Below, in pieces: positions 9,235 to 26,444 of a DNA stretch of 64,000 bases. The position numbers were made by a program, and so were the translations under genes. The notes below the pieces were generated by a model, which had not been told where the DNA came from, made no database searches, and saw only the letters and a list, made by a program, of their open reading frames with translations. Origin of the DNA: Synechococcus sp. PROS-7-1 (GTDB lineage Bacteria > Cyanobacteriota > Cyanobacteriia > PCC-6307 > Cyanobiaceae); assembly GCF_014279795.1 (NCBI RefSeq), contig NZ_CP047945.1, positions 640,572-704,571 on the forward strand. The letters run 5' to 3'. Numbering within the stretch: position 1 is the stretch's first letter; each line of letters starts with the position of its first letter.

Positions 9235-11375
9235 TTTTCGCTTCTCCTCAATCGATGGATTTGACCTTGCGTTAATGTATAGGAGTGAATCTTATTCAAT
9301 AAATCATTGTCATTATCAACAAGAAAAATAGCACGTTTTTGATATTTAATAATCCCCTCAATAAAAGTGTCTTTAAGCTTTATTGGCAAGCTGTCAAGCA
9401 CATTATCTATGATCAACACTTTAGGTTGACGGATTAAAGCCCGAAGCACCTGCATGATCACTTTCTCTCCGCCGCTCAAGTTTTTGCAATCATTCAGTGG
9501 ACGATTTAGGTCTTTGAAAAGGTTTAAATTGGAAAGCCCTAAATGTTTTATCATGGCCATTATTTGTTCAAAGTCGCTTTCTTGAAATGGATCTATATTA
9601 AACATCAATGAGTTTTTAAATAACAAAGGCTCTGCCTCCACCATCAAAATTAACTGATTAAGTCTCTTCCCAGATTGCTGATTAATATTTTCGCCAAATA
9701 TTTTAATTTGTCCGGAATTAGGTCTTATACGACCTGATAGTAACTTCCCCAAGGTTGTTTTCCCCGATGATTGGCCTGCAGCAATAGCGATTGGAAATGC
9801 AAGCGTATTAAGCTTGCATGATGCATGAAGAAGAATATTTTTACTGAATAACGAATATTTAAAGCTAACATCTTCCATTTGTAGAATTTCAGATTCGTGC
9901 GGTTGATGAATTGCAATCGCAGGTTGATTGCCAAATGCGGGATTGTATCTCCCATCCAGTGGTGTTGTGGTAAGGTCTTCTAGTCGCTTATACGCAATCA
10001 ATGTCTCTTGCAGATTTTGAATCGTTGAAGCGAGTCCAGATAATGGTGCTAAAGACATGCTCACTAAAGTATCTAAAGCGGCATATTGACCAAGTGTGAT
10101 TTGGCCATTGAGAATCAGTAGTGACGCCGCAAATAACAGAACAACCGTGGATAGGCTATCAATTAGGCTGAGAAAAAAACCTTGTTGTGCATAGGTAATA
10201 TTCAATAGATTCTCCGATTGCTGCGCAATAATCAAGCTCTGCGTATATCGTGATAGGTGAAGATGCTCTTGCCCTTCCATCTTGATTTGATCATATCCAT
10301 TGATGATTTGATACAAATCTGATTGATTTTTCGCTAATGATTGCTGACTTTCTTGTTGAAGACCAACCTGAACTGGTATCATTACGATTGATGCTGTAAT
10401 GATAATGGCCATCAAGCAAGCAATGAAGATAAATAACCAAAATGAAGTTGCTAGTAATATAAAGAACAATATGAATAGATTAATAGCTGCGATCAGCAGC
10501 GTAATTAGAGAGGATTGATTCGCAAGTAAGAGTTGGTCAAGATTTTCAAACTTTGCGCTAATGTCTCCGGTATGTCGGCTTAAAAAATAGTTTTCTGGAA
10601 GTCTAATTAATTTACGATAAAAGTATTGATTGAGCCTTAGGCTTAATTGACTGATTCCAAAGCATATACACCCGAAGAGTAAAAAAGTTCCAAGACCACA
10701 AACAATTGCAATTATTATTTGAGAAATAGCAAGCGACCGACTCCATTGCGGAAGATTGAGCTCAACAACCCATGTAAAAAAGATATTTAAAATTTGTGCA
10801 TTTGCAAGCTCAAAAGTCGCAATAACGATCAAAAGAAGCGCGATAATGGTGAGAAGAGAAGCAGAAAAACTTTGCTTTACACTAGTAAGCCAAATCGCTT
10901 GTTTTTTTGAGTGATTGTTTGCATTGCTTGTCAGTGGACGCTCGTCAATCTTTCGTCCAACAAGAGCGTAGGGATCGATATTGCAAGCCAAAATGTTCTT
11001 TTCAATCTCTAAAAAACCGGTGGCTGGGTCATGTACGATGAAGTGCGACTCTGTTTTTTCAAGGATCAGAATAAAATGTTTACTATTCCAGCAAACAATT
11101 GTGGGCAATTCTAAGCTTGCGAGCACATCCACTTCATTCCTTGTGTTGTGAAGTACGATGCGAATCCCAATATGCTCTGCAAGTCTTAGCAGTTGGCTTG
11201 CATTAATTCCTCCATGACATGATCCATAGATTGCTCGAATTTGTTGTAATGAGATATTGACATTTAACGAGTGTGCCATCATTGCTAGGCAGACTAACCC
11301 ACACTCAGATTCATCAGATTGAAAGATTAGTCGTGTGCTTTTGTTTGTAGATAATCCGAGGATTGAGTTCATCAT
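9231..11375 (-). CDS. NHLM-type ABC transporter with C39 leader peptidase (ABC1-like)
   Basis: A 714-residue bifunctional exporter. Residues 1-140 form a C39 peptidase with all expected active-site residues: Gln and Cys in FQSDESECGLVCLAMM, His in WNSKHFILIL and Asp in VHDPATG. Such domains cut leader peptides after a double glycine. A transmembrane domain follows (about 165-450), then an ATPase domain. The ATPase keeps LSGGEK, but Walker A is AGQSSGKT, the catalytic Glu after Walker B is Asn (LIIDNVLD) and the switch His is absent (FLVDNDND). It therefore probably needs the neighbouring ABC subunit for hydrolysis. It is co-transcribed with the HlyD-like gene 5 bp upstream. Confidence 0.92.
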   Translation of the reverse strand: MMNSILGLSTNKSTRLIFQSDESECGLVCLAMMAHSLNVNISLQQIRAIYGSCHGGINASQLLRLAEHIGIRIVLHNTRNEVDVLASLELPTIVCWNSKHFILILEKTESHFIVHDPATGFLEIEKNILACNIDPYALVGRKIDERPLTSNANNHSKKQAIWLTSVKQSFSASLLTIIALLLIVIATFELANAQILNIFFTWVVELNLPQWSRSLAISQIIIAIVCGLGTFLLFGCICFGISQLSLRLNQYFYRKLIRLPENYFLSRHTGDISAKFENLDQLLLANQSSLITLLIAAINLFILFFILLATSFWLFIFIACLMAIIITASIVMIPVQVGLQQESQQSLAKNQSDLYQIINGYDQIKMEGQEHLHLSRYTQSLIIAQQSENLLNITYAQQGFFLSLIDSLSTVVLLFAASLLILNGQITLGQYAALDTLVSMSLAPLSGLASTIQNLQETLIAYKRLEDLTTTPLDGRYNPAFGNQPAIAIHQPHESEILQMEDVSFKYSLFSKNILLHASCKLNTLAFPIAIAAGQSSGKTTLGKLLSGRIRPNSGQIKIFGENINQQSGKRLNQLILMVEAEPLLFKNSLMFNIDPFQESDFEQIMAMIKHLGLSNLNLFKDLNRPLNDCKNLSGGEKVIMQVLRALIRQPKVLIIDNVLDSLPIKLKDTFIEGIIKYQKRAIFLVDNDNDLLNKIHSYTLTQGQIHRLRRSEK

Positions 11376-11380
11376 AGAAG

Positions 11381-12688
11381 TTACCTTCCATACCCTAGAT
11401 TTTTTCTCATTAGTGGCACCAAATAGCTAATCGGAGTCCATGTGTCGTAAATACAATCCACAGTCGCGGCTCCACCTGTCTTGAATCCCCAACTTGGAGG
11501 ACGTTGGGTTGTCCATTGAAGATTTCCCTTTTTAGTGCGATCCATAGTAATTACAAGCAAGTATGGAAAAGCAGAAAATTCTTGGAAAGTAGACCGGTTT
11601 GTCAATTCTGCGAAGAGAGAATTAGCAGTGTATTCAAGGCCTAAGATTCTCGTTAATTCCTGCGGATTTGTTGGGAGCTCCCCTACCGACTTTACTTTTG
11701 CGAGGATGTAGCCATATCGAGACGCAGGTGTTTCAGCTGGACTTAAAAAACATCGACTCCCTTTCTTAAGTCTTTTAGCTGCTTCTGCTGAGAGAAGAAA
11801 AACTCCTAACTCAGGTCCATCCTTTAAAGCAATTGTGGCAACTGTCTGCCCTTCTTGTAGATAATCACCTTCATTCACATCAATAACACTGACAACACCA
11901 TTTGTACCTGAGAGGATATCTTGCGAGAGTTTTAGTTGGTTATTCGCAATCTCGGCATTGTTATCACTAGTTATTTGAGAAGACTTGGCAGAAATTTTTA
12001 ACTGTATTAGCTCAGATTGTTTCTGCTCAATGGATCCTTGCAATTGCATCAGTTGTGTTTTAATCTCATCGACCTGATTCAGCTGAGACAAATACTCTGC
12101 TTGACTGATGTCTTGATTGCCAACTAGTTTTTGATATCGATCAAGCTGTTCTTGATTCAAAGTCAATTGCTGCTGAAGAGTCTCTTGGGTTTGGAGCAAT
12201 CCACCGATGCTTTTTTGGGTTGAAATTAACATTTCATTGAGCTGTTCTGGTGTCATTGCATTGGTTAGATCTTGAATTGCTTCATTCGATGCTGCTTGAA
12301 TTTTCTGAACCTGGTTATCAAGACTGACGAGAGCTTGTCCTTTGGTAACGCGTTGTCCTGTGTCAATATGGACTTTATTCACTCTTCCGGAAATCTGAGC
12401 GTATGCACGAACATTTTTTCCTTGATTAAGTGTAAATCCAATACCACCAACGGTTGCATTCACACGATAAATACAAGCCCAGATCAAAAAACAGCCACTT
12501 ATCGCTATCAAGCCGTAGCTCGCTAGACCAAAAGGCTGTTGTGTCACGAACCCAAGAAAGGGATAAACCTTCTTCAGTCGCTTCGTGTTAGATCTCATGT
12601 AGGTAAGATAGCTGTCATTACTTGATTGGCAATCATATGTTTTGTTTCCTTTCTGCTCTGGTGGGAGTTTGCTTCTCAATTGCCACAT
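11381..12688 (-). CDS. HlyD-family periplasmic adaptor of the NHLM-type exporter
   Basis: A 435-residue membrane fusion protein. It has a cytoplasmic N-terminus, one transmembrane helix (about residues 57-75), a lipoyl/barrel-sandwich half (RVNKVHIDTGQRVTKGQALV), a long coiled-coil hairpin rich in Gln and Leu (about 130-250), the second lipoyl half (GVVSVIDVNEGDYLQEGQ) and a beta-barrel domain. The C-terminal SYLVPLMRKNLGYGR ends much like the NHLM bacteriocin secretion protein family. It bridges the ABC pair to TolC. The start could also be ATG 12598, which would shorten it by 30 residues. It is the first gene of the minus-strand operon. Confidence 0.88.
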   Translation of the reverse strand: MWQLRSKLPPEQKGNKTYDCQSSNDSYLTYMRSNTKRLKKVYPFLGFVTQQPFGLASYGLIAISGCFLIWACIYRVNATVGGIGFTLNQGKNVRAYAQISGRVNKVHIDTGQRVTKGQALVSLDNQVQKIQAASNEAIQDLTNAMTPEQLNEMLISTQKSIGGLLQTQETLQQQLTLNQEQLDRYQKLVGNQDISQAEYLSQLNQVDEIKTQLMQLQGSIEQKQSELIQLKISAKSSQITSDNNAEIANNQLKLSQDILSGTNGVVSVIDVNEGDYLQEGQTVATIALKDGPELGVFLLSAEAAKRLKKGSRCFLSPAETPASRYGYILAKVKSVGELPTNPQELTRILGLEYTANSLFAELTNRSTFQEFSAFPYLLVITMDRTKKGNLQWTTQRPPSWGFKTGGAATVDCIYDTWTPISYLVPLMRKNLGYGR

Positions 12689-12700
12689 TTATGGTGCTCG

Positions 12701-12728
12701 TTGCTTTTGCTTCTGATGGGGCTAAAAT
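12701..12728 (+). promoter_or_regulatory. putative sigma-70 promoter for the TolC-like gene
   Basis: TTGCTT at 12701-12706 and TAAAAT at 12723-12728 are separated by 16 nt and lie 24 bp before the ATG at 12753. They sit in the short divergent gap between the HlyD-like and TolC-like genes, so both transcription units of the export system may be controlled from this point. AT-rich DNA makes chance matches likely. Confidence 0.35.
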
Positions 12729-12752
12729 TTGAGAATTAAACAGATATCTTCT

Positions 12753-14522
12753 ATGTCTAGGCGTTTTTTCAATACATTTTGGGTGTCTTGTACTCTTCTT
12801 GTTGGCATTTTTCCAACTGGCTCAAGCAAGGCAGATCAGTTACTACCACTTGACGTATCGGATCTAACCCTTGAGATCTCAACCTCCAATTCCCATTCAT
12901 ATCAAAAACTCTCGCAACTGCTTTCGGTCATGCCGCCTGAAGTGAAGGAATCGATTAGTCCAGTCCGATTCCAGCCTGACGCAGGCATGAATTCCTATGA
13001 ATTTGCTGGATTGAGCTTCCAATGTGATCAATTATTTGGCTCTCACATCGTCTATTCGTTGTCCAGTCAGCGATGTCGCCCTTATGACCCGTCATTGGAT
13101 CATCACGCTCTTGGCTTTAAAAACCTACTTTTGAGATCAGTCGTTTTATCTCCTTCTATTGCTGCCTCGCTCAGCACTGTTGACTCCAACCGTTGGCTGG
13201 TTCGTCAGTCGTTTAGTTCTTGGTATCCATCATTGAGCTTATCCTCTGGTTCCTTGATGTCTGTCAATATTTCCAATACTCAAAATTACACTTCTTCCGG
13301 TTCTGGTGGATCAAATCCATCTGCAAGCGGCACTTCCTTTCAACCTACAACAGAGATCGGTAATAGCCGTCGTAGGATTTCTCAGACTCAGATGAATCAA
13401 GATAACTCTGGATTGGTGCCACCATATACTCAGACTTCATCTTACTTGCAAGCATACCCAGTTTTAACACTTAATTGGCAGCTCTTTGATTTATCACGAT
13501 CATCCTCAATATCTGCTTCAAAAGAACAGCTCACTGCTTCACAGTTCCAGGCTTTGGATCAAGCTAGGCAAACAATTCTGTCTGTTGCGACCCTTTACAG
13601 TCAACTTCAAGCTTCTGAATACCAAATAGCTACAATTTTATCACTTTGCGTCTCTTCTCAAAAGTTACTGGAACGCTATCAAAATCAATTAGAGCAAGGC
13701 TTAATTTCTAAAGCTGTATTTCTATCACAACGCTCCAATCTGGAATTATCAAAAAGTCAGTTGATGTCTGCAGTTGCCACCTATCAATCGACTTTAGAGC
13801 AGATTAAAGTCTCAGCAATGATCTCTCAAATGGCGACTAATTTTGTATTGCCGCAAACACTTGCATTGCCTCAATCTTGGCCAATCAGCCTCGATCAGAC
13901 AAAAGAACTGGTTTCTCAATATCCCAGTATTTTGGCTTATGAGCACCAAGCTCGTCAGTATTCTCAACTATCTCAGGGTAGTATGAACGGTTACTGGCCT
14001 GTGATTTCCATCCTTGGATATCTCACCTATGTCGGTACACAAGGTAGTCAAGATTACTCACCCCCACAGCAGCCGTCAGGTGCGTGGTCTTCACAGGTAT
14101 CTAATTACATCGGCCTGAATTTTACCTGGAATATTTTCGATGGGTTTTCTTCTTATAACCAGGCCCGTAGTTACGCCTCTCAATCTTTGTCTTACACACA
14201 ACAGAGCCTTGCGGAAAGTCAATCGTTGTTGTCTGAGGCAATGTCGAGTATTGAAGAAATTAAATATACCTTGCCATTATTGACGTCACTTGATTCTAGT
14301 TATCAAGCTGAGGCACAGGCTTACTACTCATACTTGCTGAGGATGCAAGCTGGCATTGATGACTATTCAGTCATTTTTCAATCCCAACAACAGCTTTCTT
14401 CTTTGTTGTCTTCTTATAGTTCTTCTTATCAGAACTTATTCTCATCTTACTTTCAGTTGATTGCTCTGACAGGGATGCATCTAAATGCTTCTTTTTTTCA
14501 TCAATACCAAGACGGGAATTAA
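12753..14522 (+). CDS. TolC-like outer-membrane channel of a type I secretion system
   Basis: A 589-residue outer-membrane efflux protein. From ATG 12753 (MSRRFFNTFWVSCTLL) it has a clear signal peptide with likely cleavage after SSKA; a TTG 9 codons upstream is less likely. Two repeated helical-barrel halves are visible, with heptad-like Gln/Ser/Leu stretches, for example QARQTILSVATLYSQL and SYASQSLSYTQQSLAE. A serine/glycine-rich insert lies around residues 170-220. It completes the ABC-HlyD-TolC conduit and heads a plus-strand unit together with the candidate cargo 74 bp downstream. Confidence 0.88.
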   Translation: MSRRFFNTFWVSCTLLVGIFPTGSSKADQLLPLDVSDLTLEISTSNSHSYQKLSQLLSVMPPEVKESISPVRFQPDAGMNSYEFAGLSFQCDQLFGSHIVYSLSSQRCRPYDPSLDHHALGFKNLLLRSVVLSPSIAASLSTVDSNRWLVRQSFSSWYPSLSLSSGSLMSVNISNTQNYTSSGSGGSNPSASGTSFQPTTEIGNSRRRISQTQMNQDNSGLVPPYTQTSSYLQAYPVLTLNWQLFDLSRSSSISASKEQLTASQFQALDQARQTILSVATLYSQLQASEYQIATILSLCVSSQKLLERYQNQLEQGLISKAVFLSQRSNLELSKSQLMSAVATYQSTLEQIKVSAMISQMATNFVLPQTLALPQSWPISLDQTKELVSQYPSILAYEHQARQYSQLSQGSMNGYWPVISILGYLTYVGTQGSQDYSPPQQPSGAWSSQVSNYIGLNFTWNIFDGFSSYNQARSYASQSLSYTQQSLAESQSLLSEAMSSIEEIKYTLPLLTSLDSSYQAEAQAYYSYLLRMQAGIDDYSVIFQSQQQLSSLLSSYSSSYQNLFSSYFQLIALTGMHLNASFFHQYQDGN

Positions 14523-14596
14523 TCCTGAATTCTTTCGATACTTTTTTGTAGTTTTGATGTTGATTGCTAGGTTGAATTATCCCATCCATTCTTGTT

Positions 14597-16339
14597 ATGG
14601 CTGCAAGTGTTGCGCTGGACGAGTTTTTGGCGTTCATACTTTTACTTCAGTCCAGACAGGCTTTGCGTCGTCGCTTCCTACAGCTACCGAGTAGAGAAGC
14701 AAGAGGCCAGATGATGACCAGGCTTGGTTTTGACAAGTTCCAGATCTGGGCAGCTTTGGATACTCTTAATTTTGATGCAGACGGGAAAACATATACCTTT
14801 GCGTCCTGGATTGCTGATCGTCAGAAAGGAAATGGAGCGCCAATTATTCCTTTCTCAACGATTATTGATAGTGCTCGCCAATTGGGTGCTGACGATACCC
14901 ATGCCTCGATACGTATTCAGTTGTTATCGCTACAAGGGACGCTCCGTGCCGTTGCTGGTGGTTCCGGTCGGCCTGCACCTCAACGTTCTGGGAACGTATC
15001 GGCTGCATTCGCTGGTGGGCGTCAATTGGAATATGAGCCCCTCCAAGATTCCCAGGGTTTTGATGATCGCCAGCCCTTGAGTGTGGAGCCTGATTTCTTT
15101 TCAGATCAAACAACGGGGCCCGCTTCGAGTGACGTTCCCGGCGTTCTTAATATGTCTGATGATGTATTTGAGGGGGGTACTCCACAAGCATTTCGTGAGG
15201 ACTTTACCTCTGATTCAACGTCTGATCGTTCTGAAAGTAATTCCTTTTCACCTGACCAAACTCAAGTCTCCCCGGATCGCGTGGAGCCGTCGGACTCGTC
15301 AGGCTCACAGATCCAAGAGTCATCGTCTCGTGATGACTTGTCGCGTGCGGAATTTGGTTCTTCGTTTGACTCTGCCGCTATGGGAGAGGATTCCGGCACC
15401 GTTTTGAGCAACGCGCGTGAGCAAATCGATCAGAAAACTTCAATTCCGATCGACTGGACTAGTTCTTCTGTTGATGTTTATGATGGAAAATATGGGGAAG
15501 TTTCACTCTCTGCAAGTATCGATGGTACGTTGAATCCTTCAATTGAGCGAGATGGAAAGGGTGACTATAGTCTCACACTTGATCAGTCTGACTTAGATTT
15601 TAATCTCACACTCAGCGCCGAAGGTACATATACAAAGGAAATTCCTCGTTATAACCTCGAGCTTTCTGCAACATTGGGGACAAGCTTAACGCTGACACTC
15701 GAAAAAAATCCAGGACAGCAAGGAATTAGTGGTTATAATATTTCTTCCTCTGGTTTGGAGCTGGAGATGGTTGCCGGCTTTATTGTTAATCCTGAATACA
15801 ATGGCGTTTATTTATCTGCTTCAATTGACCCTGAATTGAGTTGGACAATTGATGCCTCGCTGCAGGATGGCATTCAGGTTGCCAAGCCAGAATTTGGTTT
15901 GAACTTTGACTATAGCCTCAACAAACCCGATTTCTTGGATGCGGTGACGGGTGCATTTGAGAATGTTGGTGACGAATTTGCTGACTTTTTCAAGAACCCT
16001 TCTTGGTCTAGTTTTGTCGATAGTGTTGACTCGTTGGTCAATCTAGGTGAGTTTCTGACGAGTCCGGAATTTATGAATTGGGCTGTCAATCAAGCGGCTT
16101 CGTATGTGACCAGTGTTGTTAACGAGGCTTCTGCATATGCTCAACAGCTCCTTTCAGATGCCTATGCAGGGCTTCAATCGACCGTGGACGAGGTGACATC
16201 TGCAGTTAGTAACGCTGCCGATGAAGCCTGGACAGCCGCAAGTGATTGGACGTCTGACGCGAGTAGTTGGGCGTCGGATGCCTGGGATTCCACCTCTGAC
16301 TGGGCTTCAGATACTTGGGACGATGTGTCCTCATGGTGA
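14597..16339 (+). CDS. candidate exported cargo: large cysteine-free protein with Trp-repeat tail
   Basis: 580 residues, not assigned to a known family. Residues 1-120 form a helical N-terminal region (DEFLAFILLLQSRQALRR, then TRLGFDKFQIW) vaguely like a Nif11-type leader, ending in LRAVAGG|S with a double glycine at 121-122. Leu at -7 and Val at -4 fit C39 cleavage sites. Residues 123-270 are a Ser/Asp-rich linker. Residues 275-430 are beta-rich (SLSASIDG, LELSATLG). Residues 430-540 are amphipathic helices, and the last 36 residues carry seven Trp. There is no Cys, no Sec signal and no RTX nonapeptide. Its position after tolC and near a halogenase suggests a secreted, modified substrate; this is inference. 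Confidence 0.7.
   Translation: MAASVALDEFLAFILLLQSRQALRRRFLQLPSREARGQMMTRLGFDKFQIWAALDTLNFDADGKTYTFASWIADRQKGNGAPIIPFSTIIDSARQLGADDTHASIRIQLLSLQGTLRAVAGGSGRPAPQRSGNVSAAFAGGRQLEYEPLQDSQGFDDRQPLSVEPDFFSDQTTGPASSDVPGVLNMSDDVFEGGTPQAFREDFTSDSTSDRSESNSFSPDQTQVSPDRVEPSDSSGSQIQESSSRDDLSRAEFGSSFDSAAMGEDSGTVLSNAREQIDQKTSIPIDWTSSSVDVYDGKYGEVSLSASIDGTLNPSIERDGKGDYSLTLDQSDLDFNLTLSAEGTYTKEIPRYNLELSATLGTSLTLTLEKNPGQQGISGYNISSSGLELEMVAGFIVNPEYNGVYLSASIDPELSWTIDASLQDGIQVAKPEFGLNFDYSLNKPDFLDAVTGAFENVGDEFADFFKNPSWSSFVDSVDSLVNLGEFLTSPEFMNWAVNQAASYVTSVVNEASAYAQQLLSDAYAGLQSTVDEVTSAVSNAADEAWTAASDWTSDASSWASDAWDSTSDWASDTWDDVSSW
16229..16336 (+). repeat. periodic tryptophan tail encoded at the 3' end of the cargo gene
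   Basis: Seven TGG codons at 16229, 16247, 16268, 16283, 16301, 16316 and 16334 encode Trp at residues 545, 551, 558, 563, 569, 574 and 580, with spacings of 6, 7, 5, 6, 5 and 6 residues. The intervening residues are almost all Ser, Asp, Ala and Thr. The final Trp is the last residue of the protein. Similar units such as SDW, SSW and DAW recur, which points to short internal duplication. Confidence 0.85.
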
Positions 16340-16340
16340 T

Positions 16341-17387
16341 CTAGCCGCTTGCTTGATTGATTCGCTCGTTCCATTGTCTCCAGATCTCTAAGGCTTCCTC
16401 GTCAGTGATCTTTGAATTATTCATTTGATATTGTTCATGTTGAGCTAATGTTTCATTGTTTTCTATTTTTTCTAGATAGTTTATGCCTAGAGTCTGTTTT
16501 AGCCATGTGTCTGACGCGTGGTAGTAGTTAGAGAAGCCTATTGCTTGTTCTTTTGTTGCTTTGTACTTGGTGTGTCCTTGGCAATTCTTGATCACATGGT
16601 CGATGAAGCGGAATCTTTTTTGGCTTTGAACTTTAATGCTATTTGCTATCATGTAGCGATTTAGGCTTGTTATGATCTGAAGTCCATCTACGCTAAGACT
16701 TTGATTTGATCGTGGCGTTTTGTCAAAGGCTTCCCTCCATGCAATATCTGTTTTCTCGCAAAAGTCTTGGAGCAGTTTTCCATTCTGCTGTAGTTCATCA
16801 AAGTTGCTGACTTTTAAATGATCTGGTTGAAATGCTCTTTGCCACATCGTGATGGTTTTTTTGTGATTGCATAGGTTTCGGTAATAGGCTGGACTTTCGA
16901 TGCCAAACTTGGGTTTACCCATTTTCACCTCTGTTGACATCATTGATATGGCAGCTCTAATTGGTTTTCGTACATAGAGGAGAAGATTGATTTCCTTGAA
17001 GTATTCTCTAAGCATTTCGGCGAGTGACGTTATTTCGTGTTCTGCCTGCAGTGTGTGTTGGAGGAATTCGCTTGAAATGATCCATTTCTGAGTTGTCTTG
17101 CTTTCAATTTCTCCTTTTAGTTTGTATTCTAGCTCAGCTTTGAATTGTAGGCGTTTATGTGCCGAATCTAAGTTATTGTTTTTGGCGAGGAAGTCTAGTT
17201 TATGATTTGTGCTGTAAAACATCAGGGCCAATTTGTAGTGCGAGTAAGCTCCAAGGCACTGTGGTGTCTCAATGGATTGTTTGGTTAGCTCTCTGTGTTG
17301 CGTGTGTAAAAATGTTTGAATTGTTGAGCTGCCTGTTTTTGGGAGCCCGATGTGAAGAGTTAGTTTGCGTTTTTTTTGCATGATCAT
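16341..17387 (-). CDS. sulfotransferase family protein
   Basis: A 348-residue PAPS-dependent sulfotransferase-like protein. The 5'-phosphosulfate-binding loop is LHIGLPKTGSSTIQ near the N-terminus. The 3'-phosphate-binding segment reads LYVRKPIRAAISMM around residue 140. The frame stays open upstream to 17429, but ATG 17385-17387 makes a classic ATGA overlap with the halogenase-like gene, so I choose that start. The substrate is unknown; coupling to the halogenase-like gene and the exporter suggests a tailoring role on the secreted product. It is convergent with the cargo gene, one base apart. Confidence 0.75.
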   Translation of the reverse strand: MIMQKKRKLTLHIGLPKTGSSTIQTFLHTQHRELTKQSIETPQCLGAYSHYKLALMFYSTNHKLDFLAKNNNLDSAHKRLQFKAELEYKLKGEIESKTTQKWIISSEFLQHTLQAEHEITSLAEMLREYFKEINLLLYVRKPIRAAISMMSTEVKMGKPKFGIESPAYYRNLCNHKKTITMWQRAFQPDHLKVSNFDELQQNGKLLQDFCEKTDIAWREAFDKTPRSNQSLSVDGLQIITSLNRYMIANSIKVQSQKRFRFIDHVIKNCQGHTKYKATKEQAIGFSNYYHASDTWLKQTLGINYLEKIENNETLAQHEQYQMNNSKITDEEALEIWRQWNERINQASG

Positions 17388-18628
17388 TCGATGCTTCTGC
17401 GAATTGCATCGAACGAGTGAGCATTCCATGCAAAAAACATTTGATCTCTTCCCTTGCTGGGTTTTCTACTGCATTCTTCTGTGTACTGTGTGTCTCGCCA
17501 AATCAAGAATTCTCGGGCTGTTGCTTTGCTGACCTGATTATTGACTAATCGTTCATGATTTCGCTTGGCTTTTCTCCAGTAGTCAGTGTTGTAAATTGAC
17601 CCGTTAGAGTAGTGCCAGCTTACGAACAATGCGATCCTCTCCATGTTGCTTGACGCGATCGAGTTGAAGCGCTGCTCACTTCTTGCGATCATCCAGTAAT
17701 TTCCACTTATGCGCTCTCGATTTTTGATATGTGCTGCGATCAGTTTGCAGTGATGAATTGTCAACTCAATAGTTGTCGCTTCTAGGGGTTCGATAAACCC
17801 AGCTCGATTCCCTAGGCTGTACACTCTTCCTTCCAGGTGTTTATCTCCTAGATGACTCTCAAATTGAACCGTTTTCCTTGTGTTGATTGCAAGCAGGCCC
17901 CTCTCCTCAAGGTAGCGGTCTAAATCTTGGTTGATGACTTTTGCAGTACTCAGGCTTGAGTCATGGACGTATCCAATTGATAGCCTATTGTTAAGAGGTA
18001 TCTGAAAAATCCAACCGAATGGTCTTGCGACTGCTTTTGTGGTTTTTAAGTTAGGCCGAGGTGATGAGTCTAATTTTTCCTCTTGACATTTTTGTAAAGT
18101 TGCCATATTGGCTATTAAGGGCCGTGCTTTTTCGCCCTGTGGATTCTTTTCTGCATGTTTGAAGCCCCGGCAATCAATCACATAGTCAAAGAGTTCTTTC
18201 TCTCCTCGATCAAGCTCTACTGCAACTTTTTGATGATTTTGTGCTAGGTGCTCTGATGCTGTTCGCTTGATTACATTGATATCAATATTCCTTAGTAGGA
18301 TATTTGCAGTCTTGGCGGCATCAAAGTGGTAGGAATAGCCTATTCCTGTGGGTGTAAAGAGGTGATTGTATTTCTTTGCATGGTTGCCCCAGTTTTCAAA
18401 GCAAATGCCTCTTTTTTTGGTGGCATTGGCTTCGTTCGTCATGATCTCTGCTGTGATGTCTTCTTCGTCTAGCCATCGACGAAACCATGGGCCTCCGCCC
18501 TCCCCGACTCCAATGGTTGGGATCACAGGTGAGTGAATGATACAGATTGTGGCGTTGGGAAATTGGCGCCTCAGCATGCGCGTTGCGATAGCTCCTGCCG
18601 TTCCCGCTCCAAGAATGGCTAGCCGCAT
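17384..18628 (-). CDS. flavin-dependent tryptophan-halogenase family protein
   Basis: A 414-residue FAD enzyme. The dinucleotide fold GAGTAG is at residues 7-12. PTIGVGEGG and then ATKKRGICFENW match the halogenase core, with K72 aligned to the catalytic lysine. RAGFIEPLEATT (about 276-287) matches the typical GFxEPLE segment with its acidic residue. The diagnostic WxWxIP motif is present as WIFQIP (residues 206-211), with the second Trp replaced by Phe. Such enzymes chlorinate or brominate indoles; relatives in cyanobacteria act on peptide tryptophans. It needs reduced flavin from a reductase that is not encoded nearby. It is translationally coupled to the sulfotransferase. Confidence 0.85.
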   Translation of the reverse strand: MRLAILGAGTAGAIATRMLRRQFPNATICIIHSPVIPTIGVGEGGGPWFRRWLDEEDITAEIMTNEANATKKRGICFENWGNHAKKYNHLFTPTGIGYSYHFDAAKTANILLRNIDINVIKRTASEHLAQNHQKVAVELDRGEKELFDYVIDCRGFKHAEKNPQGEKARPLIANMATLQKCQEEKLDSSPRPNLKTTKAVARPFGWIFQIPLNNRLSIGYVHDSSLSTAKVINQDLDRYLEERGLLAINTRKTVQFESHLGDKHLEGRVYSLGNRAGFIEPLEATTIELTIHHCKLIAAHIKNRERISGNYWMIARSEQRFNSIASSNMERIALFVSWHYSNGSIYNTDYWRKAKRNHERLVNNQVSKATAREFLIWRDTQYTEECSRKPSKGRDQMFFAWNAHSFDAIRRSIE

Positions 18629-21425: not shown

Positions 21426-22151
21426 ATGACGACCGTCGACTGGCTCGGCATCCTTCACCCCGTGTTGGCGGTGGTGATCATCTACCCCCTGATCGGGATG
21501 GTGGTGCGATTGGCGATCCAGACCCGGGCACGACGGTTGCAGACGCTGAAGTGTCCTCCCACTGTGGGGCGTGAACACAGTGATCTGGGCCGCTGGCTGG
21601 CGGTGGGCGTGGTGGTGCTGGTGCTCGTGGCCCTCACCGTGGCGATTGCCACTGATCAACCCTTGATGGCCTTTCAAGGCGGAGCCGCAAGGGCTGCGCA
21701 GTTGCTGCTGGTGCTTGCCGGCAGCGTTGCGGGATTGGCAGCGCTTTGGGTGTCAAAGGCGCCTGGACTGAGGCTTGCCTTCGTGCTGATCACCTGGGCC
21801 GGGGTCCTCGGTTTGGGCGCGCAGCCTGAGGTCTGGCGGCTTTCCGACGATCCGTTTTCGCCTGCCTTCTGGCAGTCCCATTACTGGGCAGGTGTTGCTG
21901 TGGTGGGCCTGATGCTGTTTTCTCTCGGTGCCCAGCCAGAGATTCAGCGTGACCTGCGCCTGCGGCGTCTGCACGTCAGCGCCAATGTGCTGGCTGCCGT
22001 GCTGTTTGTGGTGCAGGGCATCACCGGCAGCAGAGATCTGCTTGAAATCCCCCTGAGCTGGCAGAAGTCAACGATCTATTCCTGCAACTTCACGGCGCGC
22101 ACCTGTCCTCCGCTTGCAGCCCCAACCTCGGCGCCGGCCGTCACTCCTTAA
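21426..22151 (+). CDS. DUF4079-type integral membrane protein
   Basis: A 241-residue cyanobacterial membrane protein with about six transmembrane segments. The start at ATG 21426 (MTTVDWLGILHPVLAVVI) has GAGAGAT upstream; the frame extends 16 codons further but without a better start. The N-terminal HPVLAVV and later QSHYWAGVAV segments are typical of the DUF4079 family, whose role is unknown. The 3' end overlaps the convergent solute-binding gene by 11 bp. The C-terminus after KSTIYSCNF is poorly structured and Pro/Ala-rich. Confidence 0.75.
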   Translation: MTTVDWLGILHPVLAVVIIYPLIGMVVRLAIQTRARRLQTLKCPPTVGREHSDLGRWLAVGVVVLVLVALTVAIATDQPLMAFQGGAARAAQLLLVLAGSVAGLAALWVSKAPGLRLAFVLITWAGVLGLGAQPEVWRLSDDPFSPAFWQSHYWAGVAVVGLMLFSLGAQPEIQRDLRLRRLHVSANVLAAVLFVVQGITGSRDLLEIPLSWQKSTIYSCNFTARTCPPLAAPTSAPAVTP

Positions 22152-23415
22152 GAGGCACTGCTCCCACGTGGTTACAGGTCAATCCGGCTGATTCAGGTAA
22201 CTCAGGGTTCCAGGGTTGAGGCTCGATCATCCCGAAATCCTTGATGACCTGGAAACGCCCTTCGGAATCGGATCGCGCCAGGAGGGACCGTTTCTTGAAA
22301 TGCAGGCTCGGCATCATTTGAAGAGAGCCCTGGGGAGCCATCACACGGCGGCCAATCAAGGCGGACCGCACAGCATTGGTTTCTGTGCTGCCAGCGGTCT
22401 CCACAGCCTGAGCCCACAGGTGCACCAGGCTGTAGCCAGCCTCTGCTGGGTCGTTGATCACGCGGTGGTAGCCGTAGCGTCGCCGAAAGCGTTGCGCGAA
22501 AGCGGTGGATTCCGGCGTCTGCAGGCTCTCAAAAAAACTCCAGCTTGCGTAACTGCCGGCGATATTGCGTCCTCCGATCGCGATCGCCTCCTCTTCCGAC
22601 ACGGAAAGGCTGAGCACCTTGAGTGCAGAACGCTGATTCAATCCTTGTTTTTGCAGGTCCTGGAAGAAAGCGATATTGCTGTCGCCGTTGAGGGTATTCA
22701 CCACGGCAACCGGACCTTCGTTAAGAGCGGCTTGAATGTCTGCGATCAGCGGTTCAACAGCTGCACTCCCCAGCGGCAAGTAGCGCTCTTTAAGCACACG
22801 CGCTTGTGCGCGCTGCGCCTGGGCGCGGATGATGCGATTGGCTGTTCTCGGGTAGACGTAATCCGAGCCGATCAGCAGCAGCCGTTTGCTGTGATTGTTC
22901 AGCATCCAATTCAGGGCCGGCTCGGATTGCTGGTTGGGAACCGATCCTCCATACACCACAACAGCAGAGCACTCCTGTCCCTCGTATTGCACCGGGTAGA
23001 ACAGAAGTTTGTTGTTGGTCTCCATCACTGGAACCATGGCTTTGCGGCTGGCGGAGGTCCATCCACCGAAGATCGCCACCACCTTGTCTTCGTTCAGCAG
23101 TCGTTGTGCCTTGCGAGCGAACTCGGCGGGGTCAGACATGCCGTCCTCTTCGATGGCCTCAACCAGCACTACCCGACCGTTGAGTTTGAGGCCGCCAGCG
23201 GCATTGATCTCTTCGATCGCCAGACGCTCCGCCTCGGCCACTGTGGCTTCAGAGAGCGCCATGGTGCCGGTCCGCGAGTGCAGGATGCCAACGCGGATTG
23301 TGCCTGTGTTCTGCGGCCCACTGCGCTGCCCGCAGCTGAGGAGCAACAGCGAGCCCAGCAGGCTGATCACGCCTGAAAGGCCTCTCCGCGTCGCAGTCGC
23401 GATTCCCTGGTTCAT
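22141..23415 (-). CDS. lipoprotein solute-binding protein, urea/short-chain amide type
   Basis: A 424-residue type I periplasmic binding protein of the UrtA/AmiC branch. It starts with a lipoprotein signal; the lipobox is LLSC with Cys28. RVGILHSRTGTMALSE, FGGWTSASRKA, and FYPVQYEGQECS (which lines the ligand pocket in UrtA-like proteins) are all present. It is not followed by permease or ATPase genes as in a urea transporter. Instead its ATG overlaps by 4 bp the stop of an upstream pentameric ligand-gated channel homologue, suggesting it works as a periplasmic sensor partner. The ligand is not known. Confidence 0.85.
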   Translation of the reverse strand: MNQGIATATRRGLSGVISLLGSLLLLSCGQRSGPQNTGTIRVGILHSRTGTMALSEATVAEAERLAIEEINAAGGLKLNGRVVLVEAIEEDGMSDPAEFARKAQRLLNEDKVVAIFGGWTSASRKAMVPVMETNNKLLFYPVQYEGQECSAVVVYGGSVPNQQSEPALNWMLNNHSKRLLLIGSDYVYPRTANRIIRAQAQRAQARVLKERYLPLGSAAVEPLIADIQAALNEGPVAVVNTLNGDSNIAFFQDLQKQGLNQRSALKVLSLSVSEEEAIAIGGRNIAGSYASWSFFESLQTPESTAFAQRFRRRYGYHRVINDPAEAGYSLVHLWAQAVETAGSTETNAVRSALIGRRVMAPQGSLQMMPSLHFKKRSLLARSDSEGRFQVIKDFGMIEPQPWNPELPESAGLTCNHVGAVPLKE

Positions 23416-24572
23416 CGTCGTCCCCAGCTGATCACCGCGGTCAGCACCAGCAGGCCCAGGGAGAGGTACTGAAAACGCATGTCGGCTTGATTGATCCGCC
23501 GCATGGTGCTGGCCTTCTGCTCATCCGGTGCAGCCACATAGACGTTGTACCCCCACGTGAACAACCCGAATAGAGCCATGGCAATCAGATAGCTCGTTGT
23601 GAAGAGATCATCGAGGAAGGTGGTGTAGGGAAGCTTCGGCAAGGAGGAGTGGTACGACTGCTGCAGAAAAATCAGCGTGAGCAGGGCCGTTGACGGAATG
23701 GCAAGGCGTACATCGGAGAGGGTTCCCTCCACCGATGGCGCCATCAGCACGATCGAATTGATGATCATCAGGGGGATGATCCAGTTCACAATCCCTGGCC
23801 ACAAATTCGACTGATAAGTCACTTCCAAGCGAACCTGGCTGAGCTGGGGGCGATACCAGGAGCCCAGGCTGTTGGAGCTCCGGCGCAGAAATGGTTTGAA
23901 ACTGGCGCCCTGAAGCTGGTAGCCGCTGAGAGAGCCCAATTCCCCCACGAGATCGTCGTTGGAGGGGGCAGGCAGTAGACGCAGATCGGCGTATTTCTGG
24001 GAGGTCCAGAGCGGTTCGAGCTCGATGATGATCGGCACCTTCAGCACATCGAAGGGATCTCTTCGGAAGTCCACAGCATCGTCGTAGAACCGACTCGAGA
24101 AGCGGAAGAGCAGCTGACGTCGTCCACCCGAGAGCTCCCGCGGCCCTGCAGCGGATGGCTCAAAGGTGGAGTCCCATGTCTCGATGCGATTGGTCAGTGA
24201 AATCAGATCGGCGGGGTCAGTGTCGTAACGCTGGAGCAGCTCTTCCACCTCGGGGAGCCACTCCAACCAGATCTCACCATCTGCTGTGAAGGTGCGCGAG
24301 TTGAGATTGAGTTCGTAGATCTTGTCGAGATGAATACCCGCATAGATGAACGGGTGTTTGGCGACGAGCTCCTCCGAGGGCTGAACGGCCTCCAGACCTG
24401 CGGTGCCTTCCATCTCCTGCTGCACCGCGGCAGGGTGAATTGTTTCCGCGCTCGGGCCGCGATCAACGATCGCGCGTGTGCCCAGCAGGAGAGTGATTGC
24501 CAGAACCGAGGCAATGAGCAGAAACCCGAAGCGTCTTGAGATGGTCCGGCGCATTCGTCGACTGACGTTCAC
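23412..24572 (-). CDS. pentameric ligand-gated ion channel (Cys-loop family) homologue
   Basis: 386 residues. An N-terminal membrane anchor or signal segment (about 15-33) is followed by a beta-rich extracellular domain (IHLDKIYELNLNSRTFTADG, then RIETWDSTFEP). Four hydrophobic segments follow: M1 in GIVNWIIPLMIINSIVL, the pore helix around STALLTLIFLQQS, the M2-M3 loop SLPKLPYTTFLDD as in GLIC-like channels, then M3, and M4 at the C-terminus. It has no disulfide Cys-loop, as expected for bacterial members. It is translationally coupled (ATGA) to a solute-binding lipoprotein. It probably conducts ions in response to a periplasmic ligand; selectivity is unknown. Confidence 0.8.
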   Translation of the reverse strand: MNVSRRMRRTISRRFGFLLIASVLAITLLLGTRAIVDRGPSAETIHPAAVQQEMEGTAGLEAVQPSEELVAKHPFIYAGIHLDKIYELNLNSRTFTADGEIWLEWLPEVEELLQRYDTDPADLISLTNRIETWDSTFEPSAAGPRELSGGRRQLLFRFSSRFYDDAVDFRRDPFDVLKVPIIIELEPLWTSQKYADLRLLPAPSNDDLVGELGSLSGYQLQGASFKPFLRRSSNSLGSWYRPQLSQVRLEVTYQSNLWPGIVNWIIPLMIINSIVLMAPSVEGTLSDVRLAIPSTALLTLIFLQQSYHSSLPKLPYTTFLDDLFTTSYLIAMALFGLFTWGYNVYVAAPDEQKASTMRRINQADMRFQYLSLGLLVLTAVISWGRR

Positions 24573-24631: not shown

Positions 24632-24877
24632 TCAGAGCACCTGCACCACTTCGCTCACCTCGGGAATGGACTCACGCATTTTGCGTTCGATCCCCATCTT
24701 CAGCGTCATGGTGCTGCTGGGGCAGCTGCCGCAGGCTCCTTGAAGCCGTACCTTCACCACAGGCCCGTCAATCTCAACCACTTCCACGTTGCCGCCGTCG
24801 GCCATCAGGAAGGGGCGAAGCTCGTCGAGCACCTTCTCCACGTTTTCGCTGGTCAGCGGCATCGTTTCGGAGCTCAT
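24632..24877 (-). CDS. nifU: NifU-like Fe-S cluster scaffold (Nfu domain)
   Basis: An 81-residue single Nfu domain. [17 protein letters not shown] begins at ATG 24877; the frame stays open far upstream but the family starts here. The Fe-S-binding CxxC is in [14 protein letters not shown] near residue 49, preceded by the conserved [15 protein letters not shown]. Nfu proteins deliver Fe-S clusters, in cyanobacteria notably toward photosystem I. It is divergent from mqo, 34 bp away. Confidence 0.93.
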
Positions 24878-24911
24878 GGCCGGAATTAAGACGTTTAGAA
24901 CCAGCGTAGGC

Positions 24912-26444
24912 ATGCGCCCGTCACGGTTGATCCATACGCTTGGTGAAGGGTGCCCTTCTGCTGTGGATCGATACGACGCTGTGCTAGTGGGCGCTGGGAT
25001 CATGAGTGCCACCCTGGCATCGCTCCTGCATGCCCTGGACCCCAGGCTCAGGCTGCTGTTGGTGGAGGGCTTGGAGGCCCCAGCGTTGGAGAGCAGTGCA
25101 GCGATGAACAACGCCGGCACCGGTCATGCGGCCAATTGCGAACTCAATTACACCCCCCAGCGGGATGATGGATCGGTCGCGATAGAGCAGGCCCTCGCGA
25201 TCAATGCGTCCTTTGAACGCAGTCTTGAGTTCTGGGCATCGCTGGTGGAGCTGGGATCCCTGCAACCAAACCGTTTTCTGCATCGGGTTCCCCACTTGAG
25301 CTTCGTATGGGGGGAGAAGGATGTGGCGTTTCTGCGGCAGCGGCACAGCCAACTCAGTGCCCTGCCGGCGTTTGCGGCGATGGAATGGAGCACGGATGCC
25401 GGAGAGATCGCCGACTGGATTCCGCTGATGATGGAAGGACGGAATGGTGGTGAGCTGGTCGCCGCCACCAGGGTTCAGCGAGGGATGGATCTGGATTTCG
25501 GCAGCCTGACGCAGATGCTGCTGGCACCACTGCAGAGTGCGGGCGCTCTGGATGTGGTGTTCGGCACCCGTGTGCAGAGGCTCAAGCGCTTTCGCACACC
25601 ACAGATGACTGCTGGTGATTGGCAGCTTGATCTGCGCAGTCCCTCCGGTGCCCGTCAGGTCAGGGCTCCGTTTGTGTTCCTAGGTGCTGGAGGCGGTGCC
25701 TTACCGCTGCTTCAGAGCAGCGGGATCCCCGAGGCTGCCGACTTTGCTGGGTTTCCGGTGAGCGGCCAGTGGTTGGTGTGCCAGCAACCAGAACTTGTGG
25801 ATCATCACTTCGCCAAGGTGTACGGAAAAGCGAAGGTGGGAGCACCACCGATGTCGGTTCCCCATCTCGACACCCGCTGGATTGATGGGAAGAGGTCGTT
25901 GCTGTTCGGTCCCTACGCCGGCTTCAGCAGCAAGTTCCTCAAGACGGGTTCGTTGTTGGATCTGCCGAAGTCGGTTCGCATCAGCAATCTGCAGCCCATG
26001 CTTCAAGTGGGAGTGAACAACCTCCCCTTGGTGAACTACCTGATCACGCAGCTGCGCCAAAGCCCTGCTGATCGCATGGATGCCCTTCGGGATTTCCTTC
26101 CGCAAGCCAGGGAGCAGGACTGGACTCTTTCCGTGGCCGGTCAGCGTGTGCAGATCATCAAGCGAACGCCTGAAGGTGGTCGCCTGCAGATGGGCACCGA
26201 AGTCGTGAGCTCCGCGGATGGCTCTTTGGCTGCCCTGCTCGGAGCCTCCCCGGGGGCCAGCACTTCAGTGTCGATCATGCTCACCGTGCTTGAGCGTTGT
26301 TTCGCAGAGCCACTGGCGACAGCCGCCTGGCAAGAGCGGCTCAGAGCACTGATCCCCTCCTTCGGCCAAGACCTCAACGCGGATGGCGATGCTCTGCGCC
26401 GAACTCGTGAGCGCAGCGATGTGCTTCTTGGATTAGCTGGCTGA
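24912..26444 (+). CDS. mqo: malate:quinone oxidoreductase
   Basis: 510 residues, membrane-associated FAD enzyme oxidising malate to oxaloacetate with reduction of quinone. The FAD-binding motif is [18 protein letters not shown] near residue 20. [17 protein letters not shown] and [15 protein letters not shown] are typical of the Mqo family. ATG 24912 is chosen; the later GTG at VDRYDAV would shorten it by 17 residues. The last 12 bp overlap the convergent VTT-domain gene. Confidence 0.93.

Follow-up and report, generated by a model that had tools for sequence, protein, structure and literature searches.

An operon of two overlapping genes in Synechococcus sp. PROS-7-1, one encoding a subunit of a ligand-gated ion channel of the pLGIC type and the other an UrtA-like periplasmic binding protein (referred to below as the SBP), probably specifies a two-part sensory receptor, in which ligand recognition falls to a tethered urea-binding protein that partners a cation channel. 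The partnership of the two gene products is well supported by the comparisons described below, and urea would be both the ligand of the SBP and the gating signal. A broader formulation, in which the pair is a widespread two-gene-product urea-gated cation channel whose agonist is recognised by a tethered SBP derived from ABC importers, even in organisms that do not use urea, is advanced more tentatively, its chances being put slightly below even. Bacterial pLGICs serve as structural models for nerve receptors, yet most of them have no known natural ligand or role; because the binding protein here is conserved and its pocket can be read, it suggests a candidate natural agonist (urea), together with a gating design based on a detachable ligand-binding subunit. 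The features considered here lie on the minus strand of the window (the whole stretch of 64,000 nucleotides that was analysed):

22141..23415, minus strand: gene of the UrtA-like type-I periplasmic binding lipoprotein (SBP), 424 aa, ATG start (Pfam, PDB matches)
23332..23334, minus strand: Cys28 of the SBP, in the lipobox LLSC, the predicted site of lipid anchoring (sequence)
23412..23415, minus strand: 4-bp overlap (ATGA) between the end of the channel gene and the start of the SBP gene (ORF coordinates)
23412..24572, minus strand: pLGIC subunit gene, 386 aa, GTG start (ORF list, phmmer, AlphaFold2, Foldseek)
23646..23726, minus strand: M2 pore helix, residues 283-309 (AlphaFold2 secondary structure, alignment invariants)
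24632..25120, minus strand: NifU-like ORF upstream of the channel, true start probably internal (ORF list, Pfam)

An earlier note on this DNA had described a GLIC-like four-segment channel, containing an SLPKLPYTTF loop, whose stop overlaps by 4 bp the start of an UrtA-like lipoprotein, with neither a transporter permease nor an ATPase alongside. Every element of that description has been borne out. The two open reading frames share the four bases of the ATGA overlap, which is kept in all eight clade-A1 genomes (the clade to which the window’s pair belongs), and the genes are likely to be translationally coupled through it. The genes flanking the pair are assigned by Pfam to DUF4079, NifU-like and Mqo, so that no importer permease or ATPase adjoins it, and a Pfam search of the window’s ORFs placed no ABC importer gene of any kind beside it. 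The NifU-like ORF lies on the same strand, ends 59 bp ahead of the channel gene and may share a transcript with the two genes; the conserved pair, as recognised here, is that of channel and SBP. No sigma-70-like promoter was found between positions 21900 and 25200, and control of the operon by NtcA was rejected: no GTAN8TAC site lies near the pair, and the only two matches in the window (at about 14.0 kb) are more than 8 kb away and at chance level.

The channel subunit comprises an N-terminal helix (residues 3-35), an ectodomain (59-255) and the membrane segments M1-M4 (257-384). Its AlphaFold2 model (pLDDT 82.3, pTM 0.72) displays a beta-rich ectodomain and helices at the positions of M1-M4 (257-280, 283-309, 319-347 and 350-384); a GLIC chain was the first match of that model in the PDB (Foldseek, E 1.4e-19, 20% identity), and a sequence search with phmmer recovered ELIC and GLIC chains (best E 2.9e-5). 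No family in Pfam or NCBIfam was matched at E<=0.001, which is ascribed to sequence divergence because the beta-sandwich ectodomain, the four transmembrane helices and the GLIC-like fold that characterise a pLGIC are all present in the model; a relative of the channel (locus L071) scores 23.5 bits against Neur_chan_memb, below the cut-off of 28.1. Across 40 aligned sequences, P173 and F174 of the Pro-loop and P312 of the M2-M3 loop (the loop formed by SLPKLPYTTF) are invariant, as are Arg289 and Leu298 within M2, and Asp287 stands two residues ahead of that arginine. By analogy with GLIC, the pore is predicted to be cation-selective, and the subunit would assemble as a homopentamer. The likeness to GLIC and ELIC thus covers the predicted fold, the Pro-loop, an M2-M3 LPxxPY motif and an acidic residue near the inner pore mouth, whereas identity to the window’s channel is only about 20%. 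Protons gate GLIC and amines gate ELIC, and neither is known to have a separate binding protein. Values of dN/dS for the channel fall between 0.09 and 0.18 in seven orthologue comparisons, of which the four most distant are close to saturation at synonymous sites. Translation might alternatively begin at an ATG lying in frame six codons after the GTG.

The SBP matches Pfam Peripla_BP_5 (425 bits), and its top PDB and fold matches are the urea-bound UrtA structures 7s6e, 8hic and 7s6f. It resembles importer UrtA in its type-I PBP fold, its urea-contact positions and its identity of about 45% to 7s6e, and differs in lacking an adjacent urtBCDE, in scoring below the NCBIfam cut-off for UrtA (TIGR03407, 445.3 bits against 492.75) and in having a channel gene as its neighbour in every clade-A1 genome; its dN/dS ranges from 0.12 to 0.33 in seven orthologue comparisons. 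The residues of UrtA that contact urea, taken from the available part of PMC10392092, are all identical in the SBP (W120, S122, Y141, Q144, E146, Y190, N246 and S274), and position 192 is Tyr, as in 21 of the 22 other UrtAs compared, rather than the Phe of MIT9313. The same eight contacts and Tyr192 are found in 11/11 clade-A1 rows (10 distinct), 18/18 clade-A3 rows and the SBP of genome G106, a comparison that covered 30 channel-linked SBP rows (29 distinct). With the urea pocket complete, the ‘nitrogenous ligand’ of the earlier note narrows to urea or a near analogue. A lipobox-like cysteine was recognised by eye in 8/8 clade-A1 SBPs and in 18/18 channel-linked SBPs from outside the cyanobacteria. 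Where three non-cyanobacterial genomes carry both kinds of protein, the signal peptide of the transporter-type UrtA lacks that cysteine, whereas the channel-linked SBP has the lipobox; cyanobacterial transporter UrtAs possess one as well, so the anchor is not distinctive within the cyanobacteria.

The earlier note had proposed a survey of the pair across picocyanobacteria, and would have abandoned its reading if the genes proved usually separate in related genomes. Among 24 sampled genomes of the genus, both genes are adjacent in eight, all with the 4-bp overlap, and neither is present in the other 16. The pair is therefore together in 8/8 genomes of its own clade, whereas in the sister clade A2 three of four channels have no neighbouring SBP; the fourth, in G106, has a convergent SBP gene that clusters with ordinary UrtA in the tree, and it was rejected as an orthologue of the pair and counted separately. 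More distantly, 18 of 19 related channel loci (clade A3) have an UrtA-like gene immediately upstream on the same strand, and the contig of the 19th has no upstream sequence. These 19 loci are labelled Myxococcota, Deltaproteobacteria, Gammaproteobacteria and Verrucomicrobiota and all come from MAGs, which makes their phylum labels, and any gene absences, uncertain. Gene order is reversed between the cyanobacterial and non-cyanobacterial pairs, yet five of 15 listed non-cyanobacterial loci also show a 4-bp overlap. The channel of HTCC2143 (L250) is partial (59% identity across 118 residues), and its 12-kb locus contains no SBP. The pairing is beyond chance, since it is found again in further genomes and, going by the MAG labels, in further phyla.

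The carriers differ in their genes for the uptake and use of urea. UrtB and urease are found in five of the eight clade-A1 genomes; the other three (G204, G246 and G265, among them Synechococcus WH7803) have no UrtB match, and in each of them urease is either without a match or reduced to a remnant interrupted by stops. The pair is nonetheless under purifying selection in these three (SBP dN/dS 0.31 for G204-G246 and 0.15 for G289-G265). Among non-cyanobacterial carriers (MAGs, and incomplete), no UrtB exceeds the cut-off in 10 of 13 and no urease in 11 of 13. WH7803 does not grow on urea, according to the available parts of PMC6737895 and PMC4923085. The recurrence of the pair in very different bacteria, some of which are unable to use urea, suggests that urea is sensed as a signal.

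The alternative that fares best keeps the two-part receptor and replaces its natural ligand with a related small amide, carbamate, guanidine or other polar compound. The nearest fold relative of the SBP outside the urea-binding proteins is the amide receptor AmiC (1pea), identity between the SBP and the UrtA of its own genome is only 46%, and it is not obvious what carriers lacking an intact urease would do with urea; set against these points, all eight urea contacts are unchanged and Tyr192 is shared with nearly all the UrtAs compared, and such a ligand is judged unlikely, at somewhat under one chance in five. It is a good deal less probable that the SBP is a spare urea-uptake protein, serving UrtBCDE or another distant ABC importer, with the channel a mere neighbour. 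The sharing of binding proteins between importers is known, and provides a precedent for that arrangement; five of the eight clade-A1 genomes contain UrtB and urease, and in the window’s own genome, which holds a urt/ure cluster, the SBP may be shared with UrtBCDE. Retention of the pair under purifying selection in the three genomes without an UrtB match, the scarcity of UrtB among the non-cyanobacterial carriers and the presence of the pair, in both gene orders, in distant bacteria all argue against it.

The two proteins have also diverged in parallel: over 28 clade-A1 and clade-A3 pairs the Mantel correlation is 0.946 (0/2000 permutations as high), a value that still includes shared species history. 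In the SBP tree, the cyanobacterial channel-linked SBPs group with two myxobacterial ones (84/68 support), and a single clade of all 29 channel-linked SBP rows was not rejected (AU p 0.183, with 14 near-identical UrtA rows dropped). The pairs labelled Verrucomicrobiota nest among gammaproteobacterial pairs in both trees, which suggests either transfer as a unit or mis-binned contigs, and is the one observation in favour of hitchhiking, by which a mobile cassette would carry both genes without any joint function. That explanation, marginally weaker still than a spare uptake protein, is at odds with the tight spacing kept despite reversed order and with the parallel divergence. Against it, too, 57 flanking ORFs (picked by length rather than taken from a gene caller) at 15 of the 19 non-cyanobacterial loci yielded no Pfam family with more than four members, and a conserved third partner gene was rejected.

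A further argument against hitchhiking is that pLGICs have been paired again with another type-I PBP. In channel clade C/E, 49 of 61 scorable rows have a different protein (Peripla_BP_6 type) encoded within 1.5 kb and 12 do not, and this second pairing occurs in two further arrangements; outside clades A and C/E, a type-I PBP lies within 1.5 kb in 0 of 61 scorable rows. Mapped on the channel tree, pairing requires 7 changes, against at least 34 in 200 shuffles. Weak or distant matches beyond 1.5 kb were left uncounted (L124, at 3.6 kb; the first channel of L092, at 4.2 kb, where the PBP belongs to the other channel). On the broader formulation given above, type-I PBPs joined pLGICs at least twice (the UrtA type in clade A, the Peripla_BP_6 type in C/E), and bacterial pLGICs may in general be built to work with a ligand-binding subunit that can detach. 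An SBP beside every picocyanobacterial pLGIC was rejected as a rule: 76 of 134 scorable channels have neither SBP nor PBP within 1.5 kb, so a pLGIC does not require one in cis.

For the two-part receptor, the following mechanism is envisaged. The lipid-anchored SBP, on the periplasmic face of the membrane, would close around urea or a very similar small amide and, in its closed, ligand-bound form, would dock onto the ectodomain of the homopentameric channel (or, alternatively, pass the ligand to the channel’s own site), altering the opening of the predicted cation pore. Urea would then serve as a signal rather than as a nutrient for uptake, the binding protein having been recruited from transport into signalling; physical contact between the proteins, the direction of gating and the downstream response belong to the conjectural part of this scheme. 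The receptor reading offered by the earlier note is supported in part, by the conserved pair, its two gene orders, its parallel divergence and its persistence in genomes where no UrtB is found, and the urea pocket agrees with the ligand class it named. The least probable alternative is an SBP-assisted uptake channel whose pore itself passes urea or ammonium. In its favour, a urea pocket adjoins a channel and no permease would be needed; against it, some carriers have no intact urease, and the fold is that of ion channels, the presumed inner mouth of the pore bearing an acidic residue.

A precedent for the recruitment of such proteins into signalling is AmiC, an UrtA-related PBP that acts as the amide sensor of the Pseudomonas amidase operon. 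AmiC is cytoplasmic and acts on AmiR, whereas the SBP, which shares its fold, is predicted to be exported and tethered, and is linked to an ion channel. DeCLIC is a pLGIC that carries an additional periplasmic module and is modulated by calcium; it differs in that the module lies in the same chain and that calcium is bound.

Genetic links between PBPs and pLGICs have been known since 2004, and the stand-alone PBP-I partner of UrtA type is a new variation. The available text of Tasneem et al. 2004 (PMC549065) describes PBP-I domains fused to ART-LGICs (in alphaproteobacteria) and stand-alone PBP-II or Cache genes in operons with them, proposes a role for the partner in concentrating or sensing the ligand of the channel, and gives the cyanobacterial channels then known a simple architecture. 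The neighbourhoods with type-I binding proteins mentioned in the earlier note are confirmed by that text in spirit, PBP-I there being fused and the stand-alone partners being PBP-II or Cache. Both cases share a conserved genetic link between a pLGIC and a protein that binds ligand in the periplasm; what is different here is that the recurring partner is a separate PBP-I gene of UrtA type whose urea pocket is intact, present in Cyanobacteriota as well as in MAGs assigned by label to three further phyla. No earlier description of this pair was recognised among open PMC papers; the available parts of PMC4795631 mention no operon or binding protein, and those of PMC9430850 do not mention UrtA. The channel-linked SBP may bear on the role and partners of ‘orphan’ urtA genes in marine picocyanobacteria, posed as an open question in the available part of a 2021 review (PMC8786288), although the strains named there (clade IIIa) may carry a different gene. 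Identity of the two is unsupported: G253 has two UrtA copies 5 kb apart, in and after a urt-like cluster, and both are away from its channel. One-chain fusions were also sought in six long channel frames of relatives (ORFs of 668-778 aa) and rejected, none of these frames having a Pfam domain; in the two that were checked (L062 and L068), the additional stretch lies opposite a lycopene cyclase gene, in antisense orientation.

The gene pair occupies two overlapping reading frames of the window:

23412-24572, reverse strand: pLGIC channel subunit gene (ORF, 386 aa)
22141-23415, reverse strand: UrtA-like lipoprotein (SBP) gene (ORF, 424 aa)

In the window ORFs the channel stop and the SBP start share the bases ATGA, and a domain search of the window identified the neighbours of the pair as DUF4079, a NifU-like gene and malate:quinone oxidoreductase. 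The channel, which receives no family name from Pfam or NCBIfam, matches ELIC and GLIC in sequence searches (best E 2.9e-5), and GLIC is the top PDB match (E 1.4e-19) of its AF2 model (pLDDT 82.3, pTM 0.72). Its M2 helix carries Leu at 298 and an Asp two residues ahead of the invariant Arg289, which we take to be the pattern of cation-selective members. The SBP scores 425 bits against Peripla_BP_5 (Pfam) and 445.3 bits, below the cut-off of 492.75, against the NCBIfam UrtA model TIGR03407; fold comparison with urea-bound UrtA (7s6e) gave 45% identity and a TMq of 0.85. The window genome contains a single channel match, together with a second, canonical UrtA in its urt/ure region that is 46% identical to the SBP. 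A possible modified-peptide export cluster lies elsewhere in the window (7177-18628), with genes for a Peptidase C39-ABC exporter, a second ABC protein, an HlyD-like protein, an outer membrane efflux protein and a tryptophan halogenase family protein.

Across the cyanobacterial family, channel matches (E<=1e-5) were found in 101 of 300 genomes and SBP matches (E<=1e-20) in 228 of 300, the latter mostly ordinary UrtA by score. Among the 24 genomes of the genus in this sample, eight encode a channel with 69% identity or more, and in all eight it adjoins an SBP with 66% identity or more, with the 4-bp overlap kept in every one; judged by best scores, 16 of the 24 contain neither gene. Relative to the window, the channel has a dN/dS of 0.09-0.18 and the SBP one of 0.12-0.33 (seven comparisons each, with high dS in the four most distant), and these low values therefore indicate that selection keeps both genes. 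Additional partial clade-A channel copies, just upstream of the full copy, were observed at G231:C2:1032524-1032664 and L183 133-2545, which suggests tandem duplication and decay.

A scan of named bacterial genomes gave 140 related loci, and the 80 best, which were kept, include a set of 19 clade-A relatives (L189-L206 and L214; 46-53% identity), drawn throughout from MAG records and labelled as Myxococcota or Myxococcales, Deltaproteobacteria, Gammaproteobacteria (Halieaceae and others) and Verrucomicrobiota. Their channels cluster with cyanobacterial clade A (98% SH-aLRT, 33 rows). At 18 of the 19 loci an UrtA-like gene lies immediately upstream on the same strand, so that the order is opposite to the window's; the remaining locus, L201, is a 3-kb contig whose channel frame starts at base 2. 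The 4-bp overlap also occurs in L198, L200, L202, L204 and L205, among 15 MAG loci listed. No recurrent flanking genes were seen at the 15 non-cyanobacterial loci compared, and L250 (HTCC2143) holds a channel fragment alone, with no SBP at the locus. One myxobacterial MAG (G300) contains two channel-SBP pairs (L189 and L193).

The urea contacts described for Prochlorococcus UrtA (in PMC10392092) are W120, S122, Y141, Q144, E146, Y190, F192, N246 and S274. At these positions W S Y Q E Y Y N S is found in 11 of 11 SBP rows (10 distinct) of A1, the window's channel clade, in 18 of 18 of the MAG pairs (A3), and in the SBP of G106, a cyanobacterium with a sister-clade (A2) channel. The same residues occur in 21 of 22 other UrtAs, the exception being the window genome's own UrtA, with Phe at 192. 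A lipobox-like Cys is present in all eight A1 and all 18 A3 SBPs, and likewise in the cyanobacterial UrtAs examined; the transporter-type second UrtA of three non-cyanobacterial genomes (G302, G303 and G312, all with UrtB) has a signal peptide without Cys. In genome G253, a second UrtA-like gene lies directly 3' of an ORF run resembling urtABCDE:

L289 4266-5792, reverse strand: second UrtA-like protein of G253 (508 aa, hydrophobic N-terminal stretch)

When eight cyanobacterial carriers were searched for components of urea use, UrtB had no match in G204, G246 (Synechococcus WH7803, to which its channel and SBP rows are identical) and G265, and urease none in G204 and G246; the other five carry both. 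The urease of G265, which still keeps the channel-SBP pair, is reduced to a 77-residue remnant with stops:

G265:C1:2652002-2652232: urease alpha remnant (three in-frame stops)

WH7803 is described, in passages citing Collier 1999, as showing neither growth on urea nor urease activity (PMC6737895) and as being without urea assimilation genes (PMC4923085). Among 13 non-cyanobacterial carrier genomes, UrtB over cut-off was absent from 10 and urease over cut-off from 11 (one of which, G312, has a 94-residue urease fragment), absences that weigh little because these genomes are MAGs.

On the simplest account the pair is probably a two-part receptor: the tethered SBP would close around urea and would act on the channel ectodomain. 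Trp239 and Pro242 are kept in 26 of 26 clade-A channel sequences, within a stretch presumed to be loop C, which is one site of pLGIC agonist binding; the SBP may therefore pass its ligand to the channel or, when closed, dock on it. Across 28 A1 and A3 pairs the two proteins diverge in parallel (Mantel r 0.946, 0 of 2000 permutations), a figure in which shared ancestry remains.

Bacterial pLGICs have been tied to PBP-I fusions and to operonic PBP-II or Cache genes in the account of Tasneem et al. 2004 (PMC549065), where ligand collection was proposed as the role of the PBP/Cache partners and chemotaxis was suggested for such receptors generally. Whereas PBP-I is fused to the channel in those systems, the pair described here employs a separate UrtA-type partner gene. 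Within the open PMC literature, as far as our searches go, such a separate partner with an intact urea pocket, in distant bacteria and in both gene orders, is new, as is the persistence of the pair in genomes without detected UrtB or intact urease.

A wider survey took as input the channel matches listed among the family genomes, with their surroundings (the last 17 added after checking), and searched for a type-I binding protein no more than 1.5 kb from each channel, using a profile built from the PBPs found at these loci. Among these listed matches, 151 distinct rows comprised 58 with a PBP, 76 without (three of them fragments of one broken gene, L299) and 17 too close to a contig end. A PBP accompanies eight of eight A1 channels (downstream, same strand), one of four A2 channels (convergent) and, among listed matches, 49 of 61 scorable rows of clade C/E (44 divergent, five convergent, the latter without exception in sub-clade E), giving three kinds of cyanobacterial arrangement; none was found within 1.5 kb in the 61 scorable rows of all remaining channels. 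On the channel tree, pairing requires seven changes, versus at least 34 in 200 shuffles (six versus 32 before the last 17 rows were added).

The C/E partners, where examples were scanned, are Peripla_BP_6 proteins:

Clade C loci with Peripla_BP_6 PBP (examples): L070, L071, L078, L081, L140, L145
Clade E loci with Peripla_BP_6 PBP (examples): L077, L080, L146, L147, L158

They occupy a tree branch separate from the UrtA-like proteins, and thus pLGICs have become linked to no fewer than two types of binding protein; this second pairing in picocyanobacteria is also new to the open PMC literature, to the extent of our searches. Divergence is again parallel (Mantel r 0.910 over 46 C/E pairs, 0 of 2000 permutations, shared ancestry remaining in the figure), and two genomes carry two C pairs apiece, in both of which each PBP tracks its own channel's paralogue. 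The paired A2 locus of G106, matched by L188 of Synechococcus sp. CS-1330, is tail to tail, the UrtA-like gene ending 11 bp inside the channel:

L085 3563-4861, forward strand: G106 UrtA-like gene (not in a urt cluster)
L085 4851-6023, reverse strand: G106 clade-A2 channel

The G106 UrtA-like protein groups with ordinary UrtA, and therefore looks like a separate arrival next to a channel of the clade-A type. In another channel clade, the channels of L062 and L068 (both scanned) are divergent from a lycopene cyclase family gene, with a similar-sized ORF at that position in L063-L067 and L069. A broken pLGIC gene in G263 (L299 4351-5375, forward strand), with no PBP nearby, is decaying, its pieces spread over three frames.
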